From Tindallia sp. (GTDB taxonomy: Bacteria > Bacillota > Clostridia > Peptostreptococcales > Tindalliaceae): a stretch of 32,869 bases of DNA. Numbering within the stretch: position 1 is the stretch's first letter; every line of letters starts with the position of its first letter. The stretch is from the NCBI GenBank assembly GCA_007134225.1, contig SLLE01000197.1:1-32869 (forward strand). Reading direction: 5' to 3'. The translations under genes and the position numbers were made by a program. This document shows, piece by piece, positions 19,920-28,911 of this stretch. The notes beneath the pieces are model-generated. The model was given only the letters and a program-made list of their open reading frames with translations. It ran no database searches and had not been told where the DNA came from.

Positions 19920-19995
19920 ATAAACTCCTCCACATCTAATTACTGTCTTCATTATACAAAAAAAATGTTGCAGGAGTATTACAGCCTAATTAAGA

Positions 19996-21801
19996 TCAGG
20001 TGACACCTTGATTTTCCTGTTGATAGAGGGGAAAGCGCATGATCACGCGTGTGCCTTTGTCTTCCCGGCTATAGAGATGAAGGGTTCCGCCATGGGCCTC
20101 CATGATCTGCTGAGCGATGGATAATCCCAGTCCGGTACCTCCCTGTTCCCTTGACCTGGCTTTGTCAACCCGATAAAAACGTTCAAAAACACGAGGCAAA
20201 TCCTGGCTGGGAATGCCCATACCGTTATCCTGAATGGTCAGGGCTGCCGTCTGGTTTTCTTTTTGCAGGTACACCCGGATTTCTCCTTCCTCCGGCGTAT
20301 ATTTAATGGCATTGCTGAGGATATTCAAAATGACCTGCTCGATGGCATCTTCGTCGCCTCTGGTCATAACAGGTTCCTCCGGTGGTTGATAGACTAACTG
20401 CTGATCCTTTGCTTTCATGGTGTGTTCCATGGTGATGAGGGTCTTATGAGTCAACTCCAGCAGATTAATGGGTTGCTGCTCCCATTTGGTTTGCTGAAAA
20501 TCCATATTGGACAATTGGAGCAAATCTCTTACCAGGCGGGCCATTCGATCTGTTTCGCTGTCGATGACGCCCAGAAACTGCTGTTGCATTTCCGAGTCGT
20601 CCACACCGCCTTCCATCATGGTTTCCGTATAGCTTTTGATGGTGGTTAGTGGTGTTTTTAACTCATGAGAAACATTTGCCACAAATTCCTTTCGCATGCT
20701 TTCCAGCTTTTCGTGCTCCGTTATATCCTGTAGTAGAAAGATGATGCCTTCCATTTCTTCCTTTTCATTTCGATAAGGTGCATAGCTGGCACGAATTTTC
20801 GTCCCGTCTCTCATTTCCAACACTTCACTGCCACTCCATCCGCTGGGATCCCCTTGGAAATCATCCAGGCACAGGGATGGTTTCGCACAACCAAAGAGTT
20901 GATCAAAGGCCATTTCCTGGCTTCCCTTGCGATCCAGAGATAACATAGACAGCGCCCTGGGATTAATATGCACCAGAGTCCCCTCCATAGATGTCGCCAC
21001 AACGCCGTCGGCCATATAGGTCAGAATGGCATCCAGTTTTTGTTTTTCATTGGAGATCTCCTGCAAAGAAGTTTTTAAGCGGGCAGTCAGGTAATTAAAC
21101 ATGCCGGCCAACTGGCCGATTTCATCGTTGGACTTGACTTCCACCACCTGATCAAAATCGCCGCCTGCCATTTTGGAAGCCTTGGTAGTGACATCCCGAA
21201 TGGGTCCAGTTATGCTGGCGGCAATGAAATATCCCAACACAATGGTAATCATCAGCGCCACCGCCGTTGAACGCACTAAAATAACCCGGGACTGATCCAA
21301 TGTCTGATAAATGTCTCCCAGGTCTCTTCTCACGTAAATCACACCGGAGATCCGGCTGGTTTCATCATAGAGAGGAAAGGCCATGTTTTTCGATCGAACA
21401 CTTTGCTGTCCGCTGCTGATCATGTCTTTTTCCACATCTTCGCCGTTGAAGGCGCCCAGAATCAATTCCGGCTCCAGAATATGGGCAGCATTTTGATCCC
21501 GGTGGGCCGGATTGGTGCTGGCCACAATTTTAAAGTCACTGTCTTTTTCAACGATATATATTTCCATTCCGACCCGTTCGTAAAAACCAATGGTTTCCTG
21601 GGCTTCGTCCTGTTGTTCTTCCCAGTCCATGTTTTGAAGCGTTGCCGAGACACTGTTGGAAACCTGTACAATGTTATTGCGTTCCACATCCAGATGATAG
21701 CTCTCAAACTGCTGTATAATAAAAACGCCAACGATAACCATTGCAATAAAAATCAGCAAGAAATAGATGGTAATCATCTTGATTCGAATGCTTTTGAACA
21801 T
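19996..21801 (-). CDS. walK: Sensor histidine kinase WalK (YycG)
   Basis: The 601-residue membrane kinase has TM1 (about 10-30), an extracytoplasmic sensor domain (31-175), TM2 (about 176-196), HAMP (197-245), a PAS domain (about 255-360), HisKA with the phospho-acceptor H379 (FVANVSHELKTPLTT) and a C-terminal HATPase domain with the N box, DNGMGI, RFYRVDKARS and GTGLGLSI motifs. This is the full WalK architecture. It phosphorylates WalR to control cell-wall hydrolases. Its ribosome binding site AGGAGG lies in the last codons of walR, and only one base separates the two genes, so they are translationally coupled. Confidence 0.96.
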   Translation of the reverse strand: MFKSIRIKMITIYFLLIFIAMVIVGVFIIQQFESYHLDVERNNIVQVSNSVSATLQNMDWEEQQDEAQETIGFYERVGMEIYIVEKDSDFKIVASTNPAHRDQNAAHILEPELILGAFNGEDVEKDMISSGQQSVRSKNMAFPLYDETSRISGVIYVRRDLGDIYQTLDQSRVILVRSTAVALMITIVLGYFIAASITGPIRDVTTKASKMAGGDFDQVVEVKSNDEIGQLAGMFNYLTARLKTSLQEISNEKQKLDAILTYMADGVVATSMEGTLVHINPRALSMLSLDRKGSQEMAFDQLFGCAKPSLCLDDFQGDPSGWSGSEVLEMRDGTKIRASYAPYRNEKEEMEGIIFLLQDITEHEKLESMRKEFVANVSHELKTPLTTIKSYTETMMEGGVDDSEMQQQFLGVIDSETDRMARLVRDLLQLSNMDFQQTKWEQQPINLLELTHKTLITMEHTMKAKDQQLVYQPPEEPVMTRGDEDAIEQVILNILSNAIKYTPEEGEIRVYLQKENQTAALTIQDNGMGIPSQDLPRVFERFYRVDKARSREQGGTGLGLSIAQQIMEAHGGTLHLYSREDKGTRVIMRFPLYQQENQGVT

Positions 21802-21802
21802 A

Positions 21803-22489
21803 CTACGGCCTCCTGAAATAGTATCCGACCCCTCGTTTTGTCACGATAAATAGTGGGCTTCCGGCGTCGTCTTCTATTTTCTCCCGAAGCCGTCGAACCG
21901 TCACATCCACGGTGCGAATATCGCCATAATATTCATAACCCCATACTTCTTTCAACAATTGTTCTCTTGTAAACACCTGGTCTGGCTTCACTGCCAGAAA
22001 ACGAAGCAATTCAAATTCCCTGATGGTGAGTTCCACCACTGTATTCTCTTTCTTCACTTCGTATTTTGACAGGTCTATATGAAGATTACCCGCATCGATA
22101 AGGTTATTCTCCCCGCTTACTTCGCCGCCGGTGCGCCGCAGATTGGCCTTCACCCTTGCCAGCAATTCCCGCATGCCAAAAGGCTTGGTAATATAGTCAT
22201 CGGCTCCCATTTCCAGCCCCAGGACTTTATCTACTTCCTCTTCTTTCGCCGTCAACATGATAATAGGCATAGCGTATTGCTCCCGAACCTTCCGGCATAC
22301 CTGAAATCCGTCTAATTTGGGAAGCATCAAGTCCAGCAAAATCAGGTCCGGTTGACAGGACACAACTTTTTTTAATGCTTCTTCTCCGTCATAAGCTACT
22401 TCTGTATGGTATCCGTCTTTTTCAAGGTTGAATTTAACAATATCCGAAATCTTCTTTTCATCTTCCACAATCAATATGGTTGTTTTCAT
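21803..22489 (-). CDS. walR: Response regulator WalR (YycF), OmpR family
   Basis: The 228-residue regulator has a receiver domain (about 1-118; phospho-acceptor D53 in LILLDLMLPKLDG, conserved K in DDYITKPF) and an OmpR-type winged helix (about 130-226; TREQLLKEVWGYEYYGDIRTVDVTVRRLREKIE). WalR governs peptidoglycan hydrolases and wall metabolism and is essential in many Firmicutes. The start is taken at 22489, where GAAAGGAAG has 6-7 nt spacing; the ATG six bases upstream is too close to it. It is the first gene of the wal operon. Confidence 0.96.
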   Translation of the reverse strand: MKTTILIVEDEKKISDIVKFNLEKDGYHTEVAYDGEEALKKVVSCQPDLILLDLMLPKLDGFQVCRKVREQYAMPIIMLTAKEEEVDKVLGLEMGADDYITKPFGMRELLARVKANLRRTGGEVSGENNLIDAGNLHIDLSKYEVKKENTVVELTIREFELLRFLAVKPDQVFTREQLLKEVWGYEYYGDIRTVDVTVRRLREKIEDDAGSPLFIVTKRGVGYYFRRP

Positions 22490-22599
22490 TCTCATCTTCC
22501 TTTCAACGAGTTCGTTTCATAGAAATTCTTAGTCTTTCTTAGGCCTCTTTGCGTTCTTTGTGGTCACTATCTGGTGTGGATTTTTTTTCTTTTCTTTTC

Positions 22600-26814: not shown

Positions 26815-27021
26815 TCAGATTTTTTTCCGAACCATAAATCCAAGTCCTGCCAGTACCAAGCCTACAGAAGTGTATGCCAGGGCATTTATGCTCCCAGTCT
26901 GGGGAATCACTGCTGCGAGCAGGCTTTCACTTTCAACAGCGAATACGGTCGCTCCGCCTGATAACCACATAGCAGTTACAAGTAGGCAAACAGTCAATAC
27001 ACGTTCTCTATTTTTTTTCAT
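26815..27021 (-). CDS. Minimal sortase-substrate-like secreted peptide (IPQTG signal)
   Basis: The 68-residue protein consists almost only of two export signals. Residues 1-28 form a signal peptide (MKKNRER, hydrophobic core, likely cleavage after ATVFA). IPQTG at 39-43 is an LPXTG-like motif, followed by a hydrophobic stretch (about 46-63) and the basic tail RKKI. Cleavage by both signal peptidase and sortase would leave a peptide of about 14 residues (VESESLLAAVIPQT) attached to the wall or to another protein. GGAGGTG gives good spacing to the ATG at 27021. It lies 29 nt after the small WQGTIQW gene and is probably co-transcribed with it. No sortase gene is in the window. A two-helix membrane miniprotein is the alternative. 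Confidence 0.7.
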   Translation of the reverse strand: MKKNRERVLTVCLLVTAMWLSGGATVFAVESESLLAAVIPQTGSINALAYTSVGLVLAGLGFMVRKKI

Positions 27022-27050
27022 TTTGCACACCTCCATGCTATTGCCATTAC

Positions 27051-27296
27051 TTATCCGCTTTCTTCCTTGCCTTTCCAGTTACGAAACTGACCCTCAACTT
27101 CATTCCCTCTGTGGATGTGTATGGCATCTTCCATGAGATGAACCATCTCCAACATGCTTCTGAAAGATGACATTTTGCCGCCATCCAGCCATTGGATCGT
27201 TCCCTGCCATGTTTGATGCTGACCATATTGGATGCGAATCAGAAAATTAGTGCCACCAGGCACACGAAATTCGTCTTCCTGCATGCTAGGGTTCAA
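27051..27296 (-). CDS. Small conserved-looking protein with WQGTIQW motif
   Basis: With the TTG start at 27296 (GGAGGG, 6-nt spacing) the product has 81 residues. It contains FLIRIQYGQHQTWQGTIQW, then FRSMLEMVHLMEDAI and a charged C-terminus. The first part looks like a few beta strands and the second like one amphipathic helix. There is no signal peptide or membrane segment. I recall similar short proteins in Clostridia next to SARP/BTAD regulators, but no function is known to me. It is transcribed away from the regulator gene and is followed by the IPQTG peptide gene. An ATG 12 nt further in is an alternative start without a well-spaced ribosome site. Confidence 0.7.
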   Translation of the reverse strand: MNPSMQEDEFRVPGGTNFLIRIQYGQHQTWQGTIQWLDGGKMSSFRSMLEMVHLMEDAIHIHRGNEVEGQFRNWKGKEESG

Positions 27297-27400
27297 TTTC
27301 TTCCCTCCTTTGCAGAGACAACAGACCACTGCCGTCTCATACACAACAATAAATGTTTCTTATCTCCCATTAAAGTCAATTGGGAATGACACCACAGATA

Positions 27401-27429
27401 CATCAACGTTTCATTTACGTTACATCAAC
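27401..27429. promoter_or_regulatory. Three heptamers at 11-bp period, candidate SARP binding site
   Basis: CATCAAC (27401-27407), CATTTAC (27412-27418) and CATCAAC (27423-27429) are separated by 4 bp each (GTTT, GTTA), so they repeat every 11 bp on one face of the helix. A weaker CACCACA is one period earlier (27390-27396). SARP-type OmpR-like domains are known to bind heptameric direct repeats with this period. The site is in the gap between the SARP-type gene and the divergent small genes. The rest of the 283-nt gap shows no ORF; promoters could not be assigned with confidence. Confidence 0.55.
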
Positions 27430-27579: not shown

Positions 27580-28911
27580 ATGGCTCACAAGTCACTAGCC
27601 AGGGATGAATTGGAAGAGACAGTCTTAGGAAAAGGAAACCGGGTGGTGGTTATTTTGAGGTCCGAAGAAAGCGTGAAAGAATATCAAAGTGAAGGTTCCT
27701 ATCTAGAAATCGATACATTGGGCCGTTTTGTTGTGAAAAATAACCAAAAAGTGTTGACGGCGGGAGTGAGAAGTTCAAAAAAAATCTGGACGCTGTTCAT
27801 GTATCTCTTGACCTACCGGCAAAAGAGTCTTTTACCGGAAGTGATCGTTGACCATCTCTGGCCGGAAGGAAACTATGAAAATCCCAGAGGTTTGTTGAGG
27901 ACACAAATGCATCGCCTGAGAAAACTGATGGACACCCCAATGGAAGAAGGCCGAAGCAGTTTCATATGTTATCATAACGGTGCTTATTACTGGAACCCGG
28001 ATGTGCAGATCAAGATTGATGCAGATCTCTTTGAAGCGCTTTCAGCGGATGCCCGGACAAAGAGTGGGAGCGATCCTCAGGGGGCGGTACAACTTTTCCT
28101 GCGTGCGTTGGAATATTACCAGGGAGATTATCTGCCTGAATGTGCGGGAGAAGCTTGGGCGATCCCAGCAAAAGTGCATTACCGCCGGCTGTTTATTAAC
28201 AATGTGATGGAACTCTGCGGTTTGCTGACAACCATTCATCAGTACAGTAAAGTGCTGAATGTGTGTGATAGAGCCATGCTTCTGGAACCGTCGGAAGAAT
28301 CGTTCCATCTAATTTATCTGGATACACTTTTAAAATCCGGAAAGCTTTCAGAAGCCCAGCATCATTACCAGTATGCCACGTCTCTCCACTATCGGGAGCT
28401 GGGAATTGTGCCCAGTGCCTCCATGAAAAAGATCTACCAGCAGATTGTCAGCCAACAAACTGCTGGTCTGATACTTGAAAAAAACGTCGGCGAACAAACC
28501 CAGAATACTGCTTTTTACTGCCACCCAACGGTTTTTAATTCCATCTGTCAGTTGGAGAAGAGAAAATCCGAGAGAAACGGCACCAGCAACCATATGTGTA
28601 TTTTTAGCTGGACACCCACTGATCCGGATCTATCCATAACAGAACTGGATAAAATTGAAATTAAAGTACAACATTATTTACTGCATCATTTGCGCCACAG
28701 CGATGCCCTCACCAGATGGAGTGACCGGCGTTTTGCTGCTCTTTTCCCTGGTCTGACCCTCAGCCAGACGAAACAATTGGTTCATCGGCTAATGGCCCAC
28801 TTTAATGACAACAAGAAGGCATTAGGCATTCAGATGACAGTGACAATTCAAGATTCACACGTGAATTCTTTCTGTGAAGAAGAGATGGATGAATCATTTT
28901 ATTCTGAGTAA
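27580..28911 (+). CDS. SARP-type transcriptional regulator: winged helix, BTAD and degenerate GGDEF-like domain
   Basis: The 443-residue protein has an OmpR-like winged helix (about 40-128; LEIDTLGRFVVKNNQKVL then LLPEVIVDHLWPEGNYENPRGLLRTQMHRLRKLMD), a BTAD helical-repeat domain (about 140-285; ALEYYQGDYLPE, LLEPSEESFHLIYLDTLLKSG) and a C-terminal region (about 310-430) that resembles a GGDEF fold. In this last part the signature is RWSDRRFAALFPG where active cyclases have RYGGDEFAVLLPG, so it should be inactive and may bind a ligand or partner. The annotated ATG lacks a clear ribosome binding site, and an in-frame GTG near 27639 preceded by AAAGGAAA is possible. It is divergent from two small genes that are its likely targets. 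Confidence 0.85.
   Translation: MAHKSLARDELEETVLGKGNRVVVILRSEESVKEYQSEGSYLEIDTLGRFVVKNNQKVLTAGVRSSKKIWTLFMYLLTYRQKSLLPEVIVDHLWPEGNYENPRGLLRTQMHRLRKLMDTPMEEGRSSFICYHNGAYYWNPDVQIKIDADLFEALSADARTKSGSDPQGAVQLFLRALEYYQGDYLPECAGEAWAIPAKVHYRRLFINNVMELCGLLTTIHQYSKVLNVCDRAMLLEPSEESFHLIYLDTLLKSGKLSEAQHHYQYATSLHYRELGIVPSASMKKIYQQIVSQQTAGLILEKNVGEQTQNTAFYCHPTVFNSICQLEKRKSERNGTSNHMCIFSWTPTDPDLSITELDKIEIKVQHYLLHHLRHSDALTRWSDRRFAALFPGLTLSQTKQLVHRLMAHFNDNKKALGIQMTVTIQDSHVNSFCEEEMDESFYSE

Follow-up and report, generated by a model that had tools for sequence, protein, structure and literature searches.

A conserved 11-bp repeat array in front of WQG genes as the likely operator of a clostridial SARP-type regulator with a degenerate GGDEF domain

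Previously, the SARP operators of Streptomyces (the afs box, and the DnrI and ActII-ORF4 sites) have been shown to consist of 11-bp direct repeats in 2-4 or more units, which overlap the -35 position and keep a fixed distance to the -10 element (PMC10936776, PMC10972967). In the afs box, two repeats of 11 bp are each contacted by AfsR over their first 8 bp; by the printed coordinates, the downstream repeat starts 17 bp before the -10 element (PMC10936776). In SARP operators generally, the spacing to the -10 element is 8 bp from the promoter-proximal repeat. The WalR box, TGTWAH-N5-TGTWAH (PMC9210968), also has an 11-bp period. The present study describes an array of this general form in Clostridia. 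Like the Streptomyces operators, it is built of 11-bp direct repeats that overlap the -35 position at a fixed distance from the -10 element; in contrast to them, its core is TGTnAC rather than CGTTYATC or the antibiotic-SARP heptamers, and it fronts surface and biofilm genes instead of antibiotic clusters.

The array lies in the window, i.e., the whole 32.9-kb stretch of DNA that was analysed (Table 1). The original prediction named three heptamers, CATCAAC/CATTTAC/CATCAAC, at an 11-bp period, with a fourth, weaker copy one period away; CATCAACGTTTCATTTACGTTACATCAAC is indeed present at exactly 27401-27429, and the fourth copy is real. A blind scan of the window for trios of 7-mers with an 11-bp period and a minimum of 17/21 pairwise matches returned two hits, both within this site, against an expectation of 0.37 per first-order Markov window. 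Among shuffled 281-bp gaps, 0.36% scored as high as the site (P = 0.004), and 1% reached the score of the array when periods of 10-12 were allowed. Taken alone, these repeats exceed chance only modestly. The 11-bp period held in comparison with relatives, but the proposed register of heptamer plus N4 did not, as it is shifted by ~5 bp from the core conserved there, which reads TGTnAC on the minus strand. The supposed N4 spacers (GTTT, GTTA) contain most of the conserved bases, and the heptamers straddle the edge of the conserved core. In the corrected register, the unit cores of the window are TGTAAC, TGAAAC, TGTATC, and TGTCAT.

Table 1. Features of the window and genes of other loci with a predicted operator site in front
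Feature	Location	Strand	Remarks
Predicted operator, four 11-bp direct-repeat units TGTAACGTAAA / TGAAACGTTGA / TGTATCTGTGG / TGTCATTCCCA, core TGTnAC	27381..27424	-	aligned with 13 homologous operators
Operator unit TGTAACGTAAA	27414-27424	-	
Operator unit TGAAACGTTGA	27403-27413	-	
Operator unit TGTATCTGTGG	27392-27402	-	
Operator unit TGTCATTCCCA	27381-27391	-	
-10-like element TTTAAT (TATAAT in relatives)	27369..27374	-	17 bp from start of last unit
WQG gene, 81 aa, TTG start, ribosome site AAAGGAGGG	27051..27296	-	predicted beta-beta-beta-alpha; no Pfam family
73-aa secreted peptide, LPXTG-like sorting signal (IPQTG)	26815..27036	-	next gene of presumed operon
Regulator, 443-aa ORF (true start may be GTG ~27649)	27580..28911	+	OmpR-type winged helix + BTAD (AfsR SARP fold, 40-296) + degenerate GGDEF fold (313-431), R372, D375, R403
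Look-alike, probably WalR-type box, TGTAAT-N5-TGCAAC-N10-TATAAT	19951..20005	-	between walK and 186-aa secreted-protein gene, inside wal operon
Surface protein with thioester domain	L051		predicted operator site in front
VWA protein with GBS104-like tip-pilin domain	L167		predicted operator site in front
SipW signal peptidase + BsaA-type matrix protein	L168		predicted operator site in front
InlB/MucBP-type protein	L188		predicted operator site in front
PilB-type ATPase with MshEN domain	L200		predicted operator site in front
Pilin-like membrane protein	L204		predicted operator site in front
Orthologous sugar transferase in two species	L207, L208		predicted operator site in front

Conservation in related species had been set beforehand as a test, and the array is conserved. 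All 14 first-found homologues of the WQG gene, from 7 genomes of the same family, have an 11-bp-period array upstream. A scan of named genomes yielded 191 relatives and 80 loci across Clostridia, including Anoxynatronum, Tindallia, Dethiobacter, Syntrophomonas, Sinanaerobacter, Halobacteroidaceae, Oscillospiraceae, Lachnospiraceae, and others. In 105 distinct WQG upstream regions, 36 TGTnAC pairs at lag 11 were found on the WQG strand, in 33 loci, versus an expectation of 0.31 derived from the remainder of those loci. The corresponding counts were 10 at lag 22, 3 at lag 11 on the opposite strand, and 0 at every lag of 6-10, 12, and 14-21. Under the TGTnAC rule, approximately one-third of the WQG regions are without a clear array. 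A chance repeat was rejected as an explanation because of this conservation at lag 11 in dozens of loci, which also keep a fixed spacing to the -10 box. One array (C65) was found by pattern ahead of the recognition of its WQG gene.

The two traits expected of a SARP-type operator, direct repeats at an 11- or 22-bp period and a fixed short distance to the -10 element, are both present: counted from the first base of the last unit, the -10 box begins 16 bp downstream in 21/26 cases and 17 bp downstream in 2, and the window has 17 bp. The fourth base of the core is G in 25/39 last units and C in Anoxynatronum; the core is TGTAAC in Tindalliaceae and T[ACT]TAACC in Halobacteroidaceae. At one locus (L013, ~1300-1400), about seven ATAACG-type units with an 11-bp period lie upstream of the WQG gene; the neighbouring BTAD regulator differs in its recognition helix, and the genome that holds it (G005) has two other operator flavours besides this row.

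The WQG gene is named after the invariant W-Q-G motif of its 81-aa product. No family in Pfam or NCBIfam matched the protein, and in a structure search with its model none of the matches was better than E = 0.16. The WQG proteins of gut Clostridia (L087-L092, L102, L108, L119, L121) are longer, ~150-190 aa, and have a second, related-looking domain, FRDVxE...LE..FD.LSFPQ. This second domain is sometimes encoded alone after the regulator (L187, L188).

The protein encoded on the other side of the divergent gap is of SARP type. Residues 40-296 of its AlphaFold model have the AfsR SARP fold (Z 18.4), and AfsR (PDB 8hvr, 8k60) and EmbR (2fez) share the winged helix and BTAD with it at Z 17-18 over ~245 residues. 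PF03704 was found in 24/24 aligned regulators and Trans_reg_C in 22/24. The C-terminal domain sets the proteins apart, being a degenerate GGDEF domain in the clostridial regulator, NOD/TPR in AfsR, and FHA in EmbR. The recognition helix has the same residues as that of AfsR, and the DNA-contact residues R87, T88, R92, R94, K95, and W74 are all kept in the window regulator; the T88 and R92 positions vary in the regulators of other clades. Specifically, the R92 position is Y in Halobacteroidaceae regulators, where the core base G2 is A/C/T (17/0 versus 0/5), a covariation that rests on one lineage, with an unreadable helix in 1/5 cases (L097, gene split). It fits direct readout of the operator by the regulator. 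Besides, each of the six more complete family genomes has one orphan regulator paralogue beside a sortase gene (L002, L019-L023), and several of these loci encode a secreted transglutaminase-like protein close by. Recognition helices starting with PRS occur with TGTCAC arrays in the genus Anoxynatronum (L019/L022), and those starting with PRG occur with TGTAAC arrays in Tindallia (L002/L020/L021/L023), possibly a further covariation of helix and operator.

The regulator family and the operator also occur together across genomes. In a set of 391 Clostridia genomes, the regulator family is present in 44 and WQG in 19, and every one of the WQG genomes also has the regulator family (P = 1.5e-20). 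The genomes with TGTGAC-type promoters found by pattern alone are regulator genomes in 4/4 cases (5/5 with an alternative pattern). Operator model R1, built from 14 sites, gave matches in 7/7 family genomes and in 0/34 genomes of other families in the order. The regulator gene adjoins WQG in most WQG loci; in several other cases there is none within 5 kb of WQG, and action in trans is therefore assumed there.

The pattern TGTnAC-N5-TGTnAC-N10-TATAAT was tried as a regulon finder and rejected, since it returns mainly the wal-operon site. In the form TGTAAC-N5-TGTAAC-N10-TATAAT it occurs in 28/391 genomes, and its overlap with regulator genomes (4 versus 3.2 expected) indicates no link. Examination of these loci found walK beside 12/28, with the site in front of a secreted-protein gene. 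Many Clostridia that lack BTAD regulators have boxes next to walK that are similar to the one in the wal operon of the window.

Which gene the array serves, and which protein reads it, can be weighed on this evidence. The original prediction implied that the operator is that of the SARP-type regulator gene itself, and an autoregulatory operator would explain why array and regulator gene have a divergent gap in common in the source genome, at both of its divergent WQG/regulator pairs (C80, i.e., the window, and C118). However, the orientation of the array and its -10 spacing point toward WQG. In Anoxynatronum, two related MAGs, and most of the distant loci, the regulator gene precedes WQG in the same orientation, with the repeats between its stop codon and WQG, and thus downstream of the regulator gene; orphan WQG genes without a nearby regulator gene still retain the array. 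Since the array stays next to WQG in both situations, it belongs to the WQG promoter. On this gene arrangement, the array at 27381-27424 is part of the promoter of the minus-strand WQG gene and the LPXTG-like peptide, not of the regulator. The autoregulatory reading was rejected as highly improbable, because the array follows the WQG gene and not the regulator gene across loci; the array may have a minor second role within the divergent gap. As for the reader, the array might be bound by WalR (YycF, gene at 21803-22495) or by a different response regulator of the OmpR/PhoB type, the BTAD gene being a mere neighbour. The shared 11-bp period speaks for it. So do the WalR-like boxes with equal -10 distance, which in the window, as in many Clostridia, lie between walK and a gene for a secreted protein, and AfsR and PhoP of Streptomyces are known to bind overlapping sites (PMC10972967). 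The Tindalliaceae core TGTAAC fits the WalR consensus too; of the window units, only the first (TGTAAC) fits it exactly. In contrast, neither the G found as fourth base in most clades, nor the C of Anoxynatronum, nor the Halobacteroidaceae core fits WalR, whose box has A/T at this base and two units, and stands beside walK with no BTAD/WQG link. Furthermore, TGTGAC sites occur only in BTAD-family genomes, whereas WalRK is reported in all Firmicutes; WQG genes were never found without the BTAD family among the 391 genomes; and the wal-operon site of the window was not returned by model R1 at E <= 1. We consider such a binder unlikely overall; in Tindallia, WalR stays a live and serious rival on sequence, because the operators there carry TGTAAC.

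Residues 313-431 of the AlphaFold model of the regulator have the GGDEF fold, with Z 13.6 and rmsd 2.2 over 119 residues to PleD with c-di-GMP (2wb4). The domain profile matches 4urg at E = 1.3e-9 and aligns with c-di-GMP-bound cyclases at the positions of R372, D375, and R403. The catalytic GG[D/E]EF motif is replaced in 24/24 aligned regulators (WNDSQF and similar), and the I-site residues R372, D375, and R403 (RxxD, with Arg at +31) are invariant in 24/24. Their spacing is the same as in the primary I-site of PleD (R359, D362, and R390). The degenerate GGDEF fold could instead be a dimerisation or protein-contact module in a regulator that binds the array without sensing c-di-GMP. Degenerate GGDEF domains can be structural, and for Pfam GGDEF the window protein scores 19.6, under the gathering cut-off of 23.8, so we regard this as a possibility of some weight, albeit a less than even one. 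Against it, the three primary I-site positions are invariant in a domain that has lost its catalytic motif and otherwise varies, with a mean column identity of ~50% or lower. B. cereus PelD, whose degenerate GGDEF domain likewise has RxxD and an Arg further downstream, binds c-di-GMP at ~0.1 uM (PMC7112168). Because the I-site residues are kept at PleD spacing and PelD binds c-di-GMP with a similar site, c-di-GMP sensing is to be expected, and the domain of the regulator most likely binds c-di-GMP; the motif predicts this ligand but does not prove it. PelD-type receptors resemble the regulator in having lost the catalytic motif and kept RxxD and the downstream Arg (PMC7112168). In contrast to PelD, a post-translational activator of polysaccharide synthesis, the clostridial domain is fused to a transcription factor.

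Operator sites in front of genes other than WQG were located by pattern or by the operator model (Table 1). As predicted targets, these genes form an adhesion and biofilm set, in which the sugar transferase probably primes exopolysaccharide synthesis. The MshEN domain is a known c-di-GMP binder. Type IV pilus genes (PilB/PilT-type ATPases, pilin-like protein) adjoin the array, WQG, or the regulator at six loci (L200, L204, L076, L092, L125, L171).

Taken with the fold models and the analogy to AfsR, these observations make it likely that the array is an activator site of the WQG promoter, read by a clostridial SARP-type regulator that probably senses c-di-GMP and controls surface genes. The earlier idea of a SARP-style operator tied to a BTAD regulator holds for the direct repeats, the 11-bp period, and the fixed -10 distance; the genomic association of array and regulator suggests that the regulator would bind there. 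Either the regulator encoded in the window or its sortase-linked paralogue would probably bind the 11-bp units via the major groove as a head-to-tail row. The promoter-proximal unit, 16-17 bp before the -10 element, would then replace the -35 element, and the regulator would recruit RNA polymerase, as AfsR does. Activation rather than repression is suggested by the orientation and the -10 spacing, and the WQG protein would have a role as a partner in this system. The C-terminal GGDEF fold, most likely a c-di-GMP sensor, would make transcription of the genes for surface proteins, pili, matrix, and exopolysaccharide depend on this messenger.

The SARP operator and the SARP protein are known elements; the clostridial lineage, the TGTnAC core, the putative sensor made of a dead GGDEF domain, the surface/biofilm targets, and the WQG partner are new. 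Searches of the open-licence literature, which combined BTAD with GGDEF or c-di-GMP and SARP with sortase and Clostridium, yielded no account of this regulator family. In Clostridia, c-di-GMP control of surface proteins has been documented mainly via riboswitches (PMC6200980). Thus, our study provides a defined, conserved operator and a predicted target set for a SARP lineage outside Actinobacteria for which we had found no described target. It also predicts a protein-based link from c-di-GMP to the transcription of adhesion and biofilm genes in Clostridia.
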